Assembly: GCF_900102785.1 (NCBI RefSeq) | Contig: NZ_FNGC01000003.1 | Coordinates: 315,964-379,963 of the forward strand | Source of the DNA: Arthrobacter sp. ok362 | GTDB lineage: Bacteria > Actinomycetota > Actinomycetes > Actinomycetales > Micrococcaceae | Length of the DNA stretch: 64,000 bases | Direction of reading: 5' to 3' | Shown here: positions 40,121 to 53,420 of the stretch, piece by piece | Layout of the letters: each line of letters opens with the position of its first letter | Position numbering within the stretch: position 1 is the first letter of the stretch | The notes under the pieces: generated by a model | Seen by the model: the letters and a program-made list of their open reading frames with translations, nothing else | What the model was told of the DNA's origin: nothing | Database searches by the model: none | Made by a program: the position numbers and the translations under genes

Positions 40121-40135
40121 CTGGAACCCGGCAGG

Positions 40136-40263
40136 CCTGGGATCCGGCAGGACTGGGACCCGGCAGGCCTGGGATCCGGCAGGCCTGGGACCCGGCAGGC
40201 CTGGGACCCGGCAGGCCTGGGACCCGGCAGGCCTGGGATCCGGCAGGCCTGGGATCCTCGAAG
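40136..40263. repeat. 16-bp tandem repeat array, about eight copies
   Basis: Seven full copies and one partial copy of CCTGGGATCCGGCAGG, with T/C change in the middle and one A start; a truncated copy precedes at 40121. The unit is an imperfect palindrome with CCTG and CAGG ends. The period is not a multiple of three, so the long Pro/Gly-rich ORFs seen here are not genes. Confidence 0.9.
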
Positions 40264-40362: not shown

Positions 40363-40640
40363 CAGGGACGGACATGTCCCTCGGTGCGCTGCATGGTTGG
40401 CCGTCTTCGCGCTCCATGCCTTCACCCCGCCTCAACCGCATTCAGTCCATTCATACTCAGACTGATACCCCTGATTGGATAGCTCCTTGATTGGATAGCT
40501 CCTGGCCCTCATCTCCCACATGCCCTCCGGCGGTTCTGCCCCTGGACATGTTCTCGGGAGGCTCTGACGGCTGGACATAGTGGCAATATCTCCAGTCCTC
40601 GCCGCCGCGGATGGGCATGTACTGAGATGCGGCGGCCAGG

Positions 40641-40885
40641 GATGGACATGTCCCGCGCAGCGAGGGGGGACTGGGCATGTCCTGGTTTCGCGGCAGAGGC
40701 GGATGGACATGTTCCTCGCAGTGAGGCGCGACTGGGCATGTCTTGGTTACGAGGAAGGGGCAGATGGACATGTTCCTCGCAGCGAGGGGGGACTGGGTCT
40801 GTCCGGGGGAGCGCGGCAGCCTGGGATGGACATGCTCCTCGCAGTGAGGGGGCGGGGCATGTCCCGCGGAGAAGCCGGCCCAGGT
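40641..40885. repeat. 61-bp interspersed-type repeat, four tandem copies
   Basis: Units begin GATGGACATG at 40641, 40702, 40763 and 40825. Each unit has GGACATG, then a small palindrome such as CTCGCAGCGAG, then GGGCATGTCC or a variant; GGACATG can pair with CATGTCC to enclose the inner stem. Isolated pieces with the same words occur at 40369, 40543, 40573 and 40611. The rest of the intergenic stretch holds no supported gene. Confidence 0.75.
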
Positions 40886-50214: not shown

Positions 50215-50940
50215 TTAGCCCAGCTGTGCCTCGATGCGCCGGGCCGCCTGCGTCAGGGCCCCGGCGACCTCGCCCGGATCCTGTGCGGCGCGGATATAGA
50301 CGACGGCGAGGGCGGCCGGCCGGCCGCCCGGCACGCGCAGCGGCACCGCAATGGAGGTCACGCCCGGGATCACCTCGTCATGGCTGGCGGCAAAGCCGCG
50401 GCGCCGGGCCTCGGCCGCTTCGGCCCGGTACGGGATGCCCGGGACCAAGGCCCCCCACTCCTGTTCCGGGAAGGCGGACTGGATGGCGATGCCCGGGGCC
50501 CCGGCGCTGATGGGATGCCGCGACCCCGGGTGTTGCACCACCGCGGCGCCGCTGTGCCGCGGATCCACCGTCACCAACGTCACGCACTCTTCCCGGTCCC
50601 AGACCGCCACAAAGGCGCTCATGGTCAGGGTGTTGGCCAGCAGGGTCAGTTCCGGCAGGGCCGCCGACTGCAGGTTGCGGGAGACCCCGCGGGCCAGGAC
50701 AGCGAGGCCCGGGCCGGGCTGGACGCGGCCGCCGTCGTCGCGCACCAGCAGCGAATGGTCCTCCAGGGTGCGCAGGATCCGGTAGGCCACGGAACGGTGG
50801 ACGCCCAGGGCATCGGCGAGTTCGGCAATGGTGAGCGGCTGCTGCGCCTCGGCCAGGATCTCCAACGCCCTGATGCCGCGGGACAGCGTCTGGGACGGGG
50901 AAGCCTGGGCGGTGCCGGCGTTCGGGGTCATGGGGTCCAT
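50215..50940 (-). CDS. IclR family transcriptional regulator
   Basis: A 241-residue regulator. The N-terminal winged helix-turn-helix begins SRGIRALEILAEAQQPLTIA with recognition helix HRSVAYRILRTLEDH; the C-terminal two-thirds is the IclR effector domain with PISAGAPGIAIQSAF and GVTSIAVPLRVPGG. It is divergent from the flavin monooxygenase operon and most likely controls it, responding to an aromatic substrate or intermediate. The gap between them contains several GTTC-N5-7-GAAC sites of the kind bound by IclR proteins. Confidence 0.88.
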   Translation of the reverse strand: MDPMTPNAGTAQASPSQTLSRGIRALEILAEAQQPLTIAELADALGVHRSVAYRILRTLEDHSLLVRDDGGRVQPGPGLAVLARGVSRNLQSAALPELTLLANTLTMSAFVAVWDREECVTLVTVDPRHSGAAVVQHPGSRHPISAGAPGIAIQSAFPEQEWGALVPGIPYRAEAAEARRRGFAASHDEVIPGVTSIAVPLRVPGGRPAALAVVYIRAAQDPGEVAGALTQAARRIEAQLG

Positions 50941-51010
50941 CCTAGGTGCGGGGTCGCTGGACGCCGGGCGTGCCGGGCAACCCTTGTGTTCCGGCTCACG
51001 GTCAGCTAGC

Positions 51011-51125
51011 GTTCTATATGGGAACTACTTGTTCGATTATAGAACACGTTCTGTCTCGAACACAGCCTGTCTCGAACGCAGTCTGTCGAGAATATAGCCG
51101 GTCCAGAACATAGCCCGTCCAGAAC
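51011..51125. promoter_or_regulatory. IclR-type operator array with 16-bp phasing
   Basis: Three palindromic sites, GTTCTATATGGGAAC (51011-51025), GTTCGATTATAGAAC (51031-51045) and GTTCTGTCTCGAAC (51048-51061), are followed by further boxes. GAAC (once GAAT) occurs at 51042, 51058, 51074, 51090, 51106 and 51122, exactly 16 bases apart. The second site resembles known IclR-family operators of the GTTCGAT type. The array lies between the IclR gene and the hpaC-like start. Confidence 0.7.
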
Positions 51126-51180
51126 GCAGGTCACCCAAACCATAGCTGAGGAAGACCGCAACGAACGCAAGGGTTCAGTG

Positions 51181-51720
51181 ATGATTGCCAAGCCACACGA
51201 CCACGCCGGGGGTGTCCAGGGCCACGGCCCGCTGTCTGCCCCGCGGGCCAGCCACTTCCGGGGCAGCCTCGGCAGGTTTGCCACCGGCGTCGCGATCGTG
51301 ACCTTCGACGGGGTAACCAAGCGCCACGGCATCACCGTCAACTCCTTCACCTCGGTCTCGATGGACCCGCCGCTGGTGCTGGTGAGCATCGCCCGCACTG
51401 CCAAGGCCCACGATGAACTCGCCGGCCGGCCCTTCACCGTGAATATCCTCGGCGCCGAGCAGCGGCACCTGGCCATGCACTTCGCCGGCCGTCCCGGCCC
51501 CGAGCCGCTGTGGGTGGAGGGGGACACCGCGCCGCGGCTGTCCAATGTCCTCGCCTATTTCGAATGCAAGCCCTGGGCGGCGTACGACGGCGGCGACCAC
51601 ACCCTGTATATCGGCGAGGTGGTGGACTTCAACTACCGCAACGGCGATGCCCTGGCCTTCGCCAACAGCACGTTCACCACCATCCCGGAAAGCCAGCTGG
51701 GAATGGAGGACCTGCTCTAG
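51181..51720 (+). CDS. Flavin reductase (HpaC-like) component of a two-component monooxygenase
   Basis: A 179-residue short-chain flavin reductase that uses NAD(P)H to make reduced flavin. The fold begins ASHFRGSLGRFATGVAIVTF, with the flavin-binding ITVNSFTSVSMDPPLVLVSI and later RPFTVNILG, then a C-terminal ALAFANSTFTTIP strand. It would feed FADH2 to the HpaB-type oxygenase 56 bases downstream. GTG 51178 or ATG 51181 can start it; the ATG is taken with CAAGGG as ribosome binding site. Confidence 0.9.
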   Translation: MIAKPHDHAGGVQGHGPLSAPRASHFRGSLGRFATGVAIVTFDGVTKRHGITVNSFTSVSMDPPLVLVSIARTAKAHDELAGRPFTVNILGAEQRHLAMHFAGRPGPEPLWVEGDTAPRLSNVLAYFECKPWAAYDGGDHTLYIGEVVDFNYRNGDALAFANSTFTTIPESQLGMEDLL

Positions 51721-51776
51721 CGCCGCGCCGCATCCAATCAAGACAGCTCAGCTCAACGACGACTGGAGGAAGACCA

Positions 51777-53231
51777 ATGGGTATCCGTACCGGACGGCAG
51801 TACCTGGACAAGCTCAACGCCATGACCCCGCACGTGGTGATCGACGGCGAGGTGGTCAGCGAGAAGATCGCCGAGCACCCCGCTTTCCGCAACGTGGCCC
51901 GCTCCTACGCCGGGCTCTTCGACATGCAGCACGACCCGAAGTACCAGGAGGCGCTCACCTACACCTCGCCCAGCACCGGGGACCTGGTCAACGCCTCCTT
52001 CCTTGTGCCCACGACCATGGAGGACCTCCAGCGGCGCCGGCGCGCCATCTCCACCTGGGCCGAGTCCTCCAACGGCTTCCTTGGCCGCTCCGGGGACTAC
52101 ATGAACTCCGCGCTCACGGCACTGAGCACGGCCGGGAAATGGTTCGCGCAGGCGGATCCGAAGTTCGGCGAGAACATCCGCAACTACTACGAGTGGGCCC
52201 GCGAAAACGACGTCCTCGCCACGCACACCCTCATCCCGCCGCAGGTTAACCGCTCGGTCTCCGGCTCGGAGCAGCTCGGTGGCCAGCTCTCAGCGCGGAT
52301 CGTGGAGGAGCGCGAGGACGGGATCGTCATCCAGGGCGCCCGCATGCTCGCCACCATCGCCCCGATCGCTGACGAGCTCCTCGTGTTCCCGTCCACCGTC
52401 CTGCGGGGCACCCCGGAAGACGCGCCCTATTCCTATGCGTTCGCCATCCCCAACGATGCCCCGGGCCTGCGCTACCTGTGCCGTACCTCGCTGTACAACG
52501 GCGGCAGCACCCACGACGAGCCGCTGGCCTCCCGCTATGAGGAAATGGACGCCGTCGCGGTCTTTGACCATGTCTTCGTGCCCAGCGAGCGAATCTTCAT
52601 GCTCGGCAACCCGCAACTGTGCAACAGCTTCTACACCGAAACCGGCGCCGGCGCGCTCATGACCCACCAGGTGGTCACCCGCACCATCGCGAAGAGCGAG
52701 TTCTTCCTCGGCCTGGCGTCGGAACTGGCCGAGTCGATCGGCATCGACGGGTTCCAGCATATCCAGGAGGACATCGCCGAGCTGATCATCGACGTCGAAA
52801 TCGGCAAGGCGCTGGTCCGCGCCTCCGAGGCAGACGCCGGGCTCAACGACGCCGGCGTCATGCTGCCGAAGTGGTCCACGCTGAACGCCGCCCGCAACTG
52901 GTACCCGAAGATCGCCCAGCGCTTCCCGCAGATCATCCGGAAGTTCTCGGCGTCGGGCCTCATGGCCCTGCCGGGCGAGGCGGACGTCAACAGCGAGGCC
53001 CGGGCGGACATCGAGCTGTACCTGCAGGGCAAAACCTTGACCGGCCCCGAGCGCGTCCGGCTGTTCAAGCTGGCCTTCGACGCCTCGATTTCCGGGTTCG
53101 CCGGACGCCAGTCGCTCTACGAGTACTTCTTCTTCGGGGACCCGGTCCGCATGGCCGGCGCCCTGGTCAACACCTACGACCGCGGACCGGTCCGGGCCAG
53201 GGTCCGCGAGCTGCTCAACCGGCACGACTGA
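51777..53231 (+). CDS. 4-hydroxyphenylacetate 3-monooxygenase-type oxygenase (HpaB family)
   Basis: A 484-residue group D flavin monooxygenase, hydroxylating a phenolic ring ortho to the hydroxyl with reduced FAD and oxygen. The N-terminus RTGRQYLDKLNAMTPHVVIDGE is the family hallmark, with GFLGRSGDYMNSALTA, the flavin-binding TLIPPQVNRS and GARMLATIAPIADELLV regions, and the C-terminal GLMALPGEADVNSE and YEYFFFGDP. The substrate may be 4-hydroxyphenylacetate, but relatives act on chlorophenols and heteroaromatic acids, and no ring-cleavage genes are in the window. Confidence 0.9.
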   Translation: MGIRTGRQYLDKLNAMTPHVVIDGEVVSEKIAEHPAFRNVARSYAGLFDMQHDPKYQEALTYTSPSTGDLVNASFLVPTTMEDLQRRRRAISTWAESSNGFLGRSGDYMNSALTALSTAGKWFAQADPKFGENIRNYYEWARENDVLATHTLIPPQVNRSVSGSEQLGGQLSARIVEEREDGIVIQGARMLATIAPIADELLVFPSTVLRGTPEDAPYSYAFAIPNDAPGLRYLCRTSLYNGGSTHDEPLASRYEEMDAVAVFDHVFVPSERIFMLGNPQLCNSFYTETGAGALMTHQVVTRTIAKSEFFLGLASELAESIGIDGFQHIQEDIAELIIDVEIGKALVRASEADAGLNDAGVMLPKWSTLNAARNWYPKIAQRFPQIIRKFSASGLMALPGEADVNSEARADIELYLQGKTLTGPERVRLFKLAFDASISGFAGRQSLYEYFFFGDPVRMAGALVNTYDRGPVRARVRELLNRHD

Positions 53232-53250: not shown

Positions 53251-53278
53251 GGAATATGTGTGCCCTATCACATATTCC
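53251..53278. promoter_or_regulatory. Perfect inverted repeat after the monooxygenase gene
   Basis: Ten-base arms GGAATATGTG and CACATATTCC with an eight-base spacer, 20 bases after the stop. The AT-rich arms and lack of a T run suggest an operator as much as a terminator. About 28 bases on, GTTCGATCAGTAAT (53306-53319) resembles the GTTCGAT half of the upstream operator sites. Confidence 0.5.
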
Positions 53279-53420
53279 ATAGTAGTATTTGGATACTAAC
53301 TGACCGTTCGATCAGTAATTGGAGTGCTCCGCAACAACGGCGGCCAGCATTCAAGAGGCACCAGCTAGTCACTTCGCACCCACTTTGGGCAGTACCTCTG
53401 CCCCCAGCAACGGAGTTCCA

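Follow-up and report, generated by a model that had tools for sequence, protein, structure and literature searches.

A conserved, putative tandem IclR-type operator and an adjoining, probably minisatellite-like 16-bp repeat array upstream of hpaC-hpaB in Arthrobacter sp. ok362

The window analysed here is a 64,000-nucleotide stretch of the Arthrobacter sp. ok362 genome (contig NZ_FNGC01000003.1, positions 315,964 to 379,963 of the forward strand), within which an iclR-family regulator gene on the minus strand (50215-50940, 241 amino acids) diverges from an hpaC-hpaB operon on the plus strand. The regulator matches both IclR domains in Pfam (HTH_IclR, 54.1 bits against a cut-off of 22; IclR_C, 27 against 24) and is among 13 IclR-like matches in its own genome; membership of the PcaR/PcaU/PobR subfamily was considered and rejected, since the protein scores 65.9 bits with TIGR02431 (pcaR_pcaU), below the cut-off of 284.75. 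The first gene of the operon encodes an hpaC-like flavin reductase (51181-51720; Pfam Flavin_Reduct, 123.3 bits), which stays below the cut-off of every HpaC equivalog model. It begins at ATG 51181 or, alternatively, at GTG 51178, and its start, ATGATTGCC, recurs in many relatives. Next come an hpaB-like oxygenase gene (51771-53231; TIGR02309, HpaB-1, 575.3 bits, cut-off 480.2) and a gene for an MFS metabolite/H+ symporter, which scores 395.3 bits with TIGR00883, below the cut-off of 443.45. Ahead of the MFS gene, at 53255-53320, lie TGTGTGCCCTATCACA—which we take to be a CRP-like motif—and then CATAGTAGTAT and CTAACTGACCGTTCGATCAGTAA; this palindromic stretch recurs in many relatives and looks like a second regulated promoter.

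Between iclR and hpaC there are two unstranded palindromes of the exact form GTTC-N7-GAAC: O1 (GTTCTATATGGGAAC, 51011-51025) and O2 (GTTCGATTATAGAAC, 51031-51045), spaced 20 bp from centre to centre. With an operator matrix built from the sites of relatives, O1 and O2 score 20.9 and 23.7, and they are the only 15-mers in the 64-kb window that score at least 8. We followed the region through the genus, in which an IclR relative (E <= 1e-40) was found in 205 of 206 genomes, one genome per species; among 35 named loci, 26 from Arthrobacter or Pseudarthrobacter shared at least 64% identity and nine from other genera at most 35%. The comparison set comprised 111 loci—our own, the 29 best-scoring, 80 chosen among the matches listed, and the named contig L067—after the named duplicates L060, L062, L063, and L065 had been dropped. 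The O1-O2 core, including its 20-bp spacing, is retained in 90 of these 111 loci at 22 or more of 28 positions; the other 21, some of which retain O2 alone, are excluded from all 90-locus counts. Over the 90 loci, mean information falls from 1.71 bits per column in O2 to 0.14 in the next 16 columns. A sequence pattern, which misses some such loci, marks 39 as hpaC-facing; in these, O1 averages 1.68 bits per column and O2 1.79, as against 0.21 for the 16 columns that come next and 0.18 for a second block of 16, with leaders stacked ungapped. The shortest leaders that such patterns yield (8 and 13 nt) are probably false matches. Conservation is lost one base past O2. The preliminary description had placed an IclR operator here, and that placement is borne out by the retention of both palindromes and their spacing across the genus. 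With GTTC/GAAC-like arms, a spacing within the 18-22 nt range, and an adjacent IclR gene that accompanies the site in relatives, O1 and O2 together are best read as a putative standard IclR-family tandem-palindrome operator.

Two further observations concern this operator. First, in many relatives (L028, L031, L036, L105, and others), the iclR operator leads on to the sequence that in the window stands ahead of the MFS gene, so hpaCB seems to be missing there and to have been gained or lost as a block. Second, a scan of the ok362 genome for the tandem operator, allowing up to two mismatches, returned four places, our own site among them. One, at C25:253288-253322 (1501-1535 of L126), consists of TTTCGATTATCGAAC and ATTCGATTATCGAAC at 20-bp spacing, between genes that by eye resemble a fumarylacetoacetate hydrolase and a flavin-dependent hydroxylase; no GAAC string occurs in its inspected flank, and the pair may belong to another IclR protein. 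The remaining two matches (C29:49932 and C30:62471) have two mismatches each.

A scan of 50900-51250 found no sigma-70 consensus promoters or terminators, and promoter elements are therefore proposed from conservation. In all 39 hpaC-facing loci, TTGT beginning 27 bases before O1 and TA beginning 4 bases before it are invariant, within the pattern TTGTGN-17 bp-TAGCGT. In ok362 these correspond to a putative -35 (TTGTGT, 50984-50989, plus strand) and, 17 bp further on, a putative -10 (TAGCGT, 51007-51012, plus strand) that overlaps the start of O1 and whose T, A, and final T are invariant in 39 of 39 loci. We infer that this is the hpaC promoter and that transcription would start inside O1, at about 51018-51020. 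On the minus strand, a TATAAT within O2 (51036-51041), with its first T, A, and last T retained in 80, 88, and 90 of the 90 loci, is likely the -10 of iclR. At the L065/L165 locus the hpaC ATG stands 18 nt past O2, so the promoter there must be in or upstream of O1-O2 and not in the region that the array occupies in ok362.

The boxes of this array keep an exact 16-bp spacing: five are GAAC, at 51042, 51058, 51074, 51106, and 51122, and one, at 51090, is GAAT. Both the boxes and the two palindromes stand where the preliminary description had reported them. The right arm of O2 is the first box (GAAC 51042) and the only one that belongs to a palindrome, and the array proper adds five more, one in each of five full 16-bp units (51053-51132, plus strand). 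A sixth, roughly in-phase unit without GAAC, ACCCAAACCATAGCTG (51133-51148, plus strand), is the one most like the nearest sister's sequence, which has GGTGACCCAAAACATAGG, matched by eye. Tandem Repeats Finder (TRF) assigns a period of 16 with 4.3 copies and 77% matches, and a repeat finder gives the same 16-bp unit; self-identity at lag 16 is 0.75 over 51046-51129, and not one of 2000 dinucleotide shuffles matched this value, whichever lag between 8 and 40 was taken. The unit is approximately GTCNNGAAYNYAGNC, in which GTC, GAA, and AG are each present in all five copies and the C of GAAC in four. Because GTC and AG are as invariant as GAA, what is repeated is a 16-bp segment of DNA rather than a lone GAAC box. 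The array is thus a degenerate 16-bp tandem repeat with non-random periodicity.

We next ask which, if any, of its boxes may derive from operator sites, given that an extra site beside O2 evidently does arise in the genus. A third palindrome follows O2 in 11 of the 90 loci (L097, L098, L123, L129, L136, L137, L141, L143, L145, L166, and L167), against 0.94 expected by shuffling, at +16 bp in seven, +17 in three, and +18 in one. It apparently arose by local duplication of O2, and would make a small case of operator evolution by that route. Likewise, 11 of 90 loci, the focal one included, have their first GAAC/T after O2 at +16, which makes this a non-random position for a box; both counts are inflated by shared ancestry. 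On these grounds box 51058, which has a GTTC at 51048, may be a decayed third site, which would leave only the boxes from 51074 to 51122 neutral and is compatible with regarding those as repeat DNA. We nevertheless think it unlikely: the spacer is N6 rather than N7, the in-register matrix score is -23.7, the site is missing in six close sisters, and a rough tree of unassessed support places the carriers of third palindromes, by leaf order, outside the focal clade. The boxes from 51074 onward have no third-site support.

A broader possibility is that the whole string works as an extended operator, with IclR dimers spreading cooperatively from O1-O2 to the five further half-sites and so either making repression stronger or letting copy number tune it; the preliminary description had similarly envisaged six half-sites binding several dimers. 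The exact 16-bp phase with O2, the GAA in every unit, and the third palindromes at +16 to +18 elsewhere are in keeping with this, as are the PcaU, PobR, and HmgR motifs, which carry an extra external direct half-site according to PMC8222616. The boxes themselves, however, do not resemble binding sites. None beyond 51042 has a GTTC partner at N7, and the array 15-mers score between -23.5 and -35.1, no better than random GAAC sites (median -23.1 for plus-strand GAAC/GAAT 15-mers in the window). Scored as half-sites, box 51042 is top at 13.5 and boxes 2-6 reach 2.2 to -0.7, which places them between the 68th and 80th percentiles of the 776 GAAC/T sites of the two strands, somewhat above the middle and far from a real arm. 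Their spacing of 16 bp, about 1.5 helical turns, also differs from the 18-22 nt between IclR tandem sites given in PMC8222616.

Nor is the string found elsewhere. No run of four or more equally spaced GAAC/T boxes (spacing 8-30, from O2 to +150 nt) occurs in the 89 other core-bearing loci: across the 90, a series of six is confined to the focal strain, five loci have three, and four or five never occur, while the 21 loci outside the core set have no series longer than two. The string is absent even from the nearest sister, whose IclR is 98% identical—a result that, provided the regulation is kept there, goes against the string as a functional unit by the preliminary description's own reckoning—and binding along it now appears quite improbable. 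The other possibility in that description, a repeat expansion, does fit. In all 111 pieces the sole other series of four, at 15-bp spacing in L039, lies outside the post-O2 stretch scanned and is a repeated CCCCGGAACACCGCA in the 5' end of hpaC. The close sisters L016 and L017 have GAAC boxes after O2 at 13-bp spacing (CGATTATAGAACA repeated in L016), evidently another local duplication of the right arm of O2. A bolder version, in which the iclR-hpaC promoter repeatedly gains IclR boxes about 1.5 turns from O2, dimers line the DNA on its two faces, and the number of boxes tunes the response, would amount to an evolving operator adjustable by copy number; we hold it to be decidedly doubtful.

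The leaders of close relatives bear on whether the array has some role apart from IclR, whether through translation or mRNA stability as part of the hpaC leader, or as DNA lying upstream of the iclR promoter. The nearest sister, Arthrobacter sp. Bi26 (L014/L043), lacks the GAAC string in its leader, yet self-identity there peaks at lag 16 (a level reached by 0 of 1000 shuffles at that lag and by 11 of 1000 when all lags are counted), with units like AAAGCACAGGTGACCC. Altogether the lag test was run on 19 leaders besides the focal one. A peak falls at lag 15 in L018 and L019 (7 and 21 of 1000 shuffles over lags) and in L022 (25 of 1000), and at lag 16 in L020 (49 of 1000); taken over lags, the peaks of L015, L016, L017, and L023 do not reach significance. 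When the 70 nt that follow O2 are compared, 8 of the 10 loci of the focal clade, a set of our own choosing, have 15 or 16 as their best lag, versus 6 of 80 others, with a shuffling mean of about 6.9 of 90; the iclR coding-side stretch likewise peaks at lag 15 (28 of 57), and lag 15 is thus not unique to the leader. As judged from these leaders, the degenerate 15-16-bp period appears to be clade-wide and its GAAC version the focal strain's own among the loci examined.

Within the clade, then, the period persists where the sequence has changed, which could be explained by shared ancestry or by constraint. This recurrence in altered sequence would suit a role apart from IclR, as would the position of the array: it separates the putative hpaC start site from the ATG and, seen from iclR, is upstream of the TATAAT that O2 carries on the minus strand. 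Against this, the sequence and length of the leader vary across the genus, several relatives having fewer than 40 nt, and the period is at chance level outside the clade; we regard such a role as very unlikely. RNA structure of the leader can be set aside as an explanation, the fold being unremarkable (z 0.72, with 152 of 200 shuffles folding equally well). An alignment of seven close leaders is identical through O2 and near the start codon and disordered between. The array consists of head-to-tail degenerate copies that differ between relatives, as expected of a lineage-specific tandem repeat.

Searches of the wider genus and of the focal genome point to how commonly such strings occur. A string of five GAAY spaced 16 bp apart is present in 15 of the 206 genomes of the genus; the reversed pattern, used as a control, is present in 9 of 206. 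Of the 14 genomes other than our own, the 13 with IclR coordinates to compare (all except G162) carry the string away from that locus, either on a different contig or at a large distance on the same one. Within 791,784 bases of the ok362 genome, four or five GAAY form a series in three further places, at spacings of 11-15 bp. Since they turn up at other loci and spacings, such strings can be by-products of tandem repetition. The genome has no preference for a 16-bp period in the 791,784 of 4,713,489 bases covered by TRF, window included, where arrays of at least 2.5 copies number 4 at period 16, 8 at period 14, and 27 at period 15. The window holds another 16-bp tandem repeat at 40121-40254 (8.4 copies of CTGGGACCCGGCAGGC, 93% matches); near it, at 40640-40864, are 61/122-bp repeats, and GCGCCTAGGATCCGCCGAAGCTACGCGCCGGTGACG flanks both sides (~40085 and ~40938).

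Taken together, because O1 and O2 are conserved (90 of 111 loci) while the string is absent from the other 89 core-bearing loci, we favour the reading, at a probability of roughly 0.75, that O1-O2 is a standard IclR operator and that the 16-bp array is minisatellite-like leader DNA, mostly spacer rather than a string of IclR sites. O1 and O2 cover the putative -10 and start region of hpaC together with the putative iclR -10, and an IclR dimer pair or tetramer seated on them would be expected to keep both hpaCB and iclR repressed until it binds an aromatic ligand. The array after O2 would be a tandem repeat within the hpaC leader, similar to those that form elsewhere in genomes of the genus, with a unit that here happens to contain GAAC. 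An eye-catching, regularly spaced motif beside a regulator is in this way sorted by comparison into a conserved palindrome pair and a phased string, in all likelihood repeat DNA.

Bacterial minisatellite-like intergenic tandem repeats have a short unit and degenerate copies and vary between near relatives. The array resembles them in its short degenerate units, in differing among near relatives, and in having similar arrays at unrelated loci; it differs in abutting an operator and in a unit that contains GAAC. Judging by titles and abstracts, we found no literature on this operator or on a phased array of IclR half-sites. IclR-family tandem palindromic operators have 18-22 nt between centres according to PMC8222616, and O1-O2 is like them in its two GTTC/GAAC palindromes, its 20-bp spacing, and its position between a divergent iclR and an aromatic catabolic operon, resembling the group 1 motif given there. 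Nothing essential differs in O1-O2 itself; the downstream array is extra, and its GAAC string was found only here. With the three-box sites of PcaU, PobR, and HmgR, as that paper presents them, the locus shares a palindrome plus an outside direct half-site, but here the extra boxes number five, lie 16 bp apart, have no partner arm, and are not conserved. Set beside these accounts in PMC8222616, the array fits neither the tandem-palindrome nor the three-box description, whereas O1-O2 fits the tandem-palindrome one.
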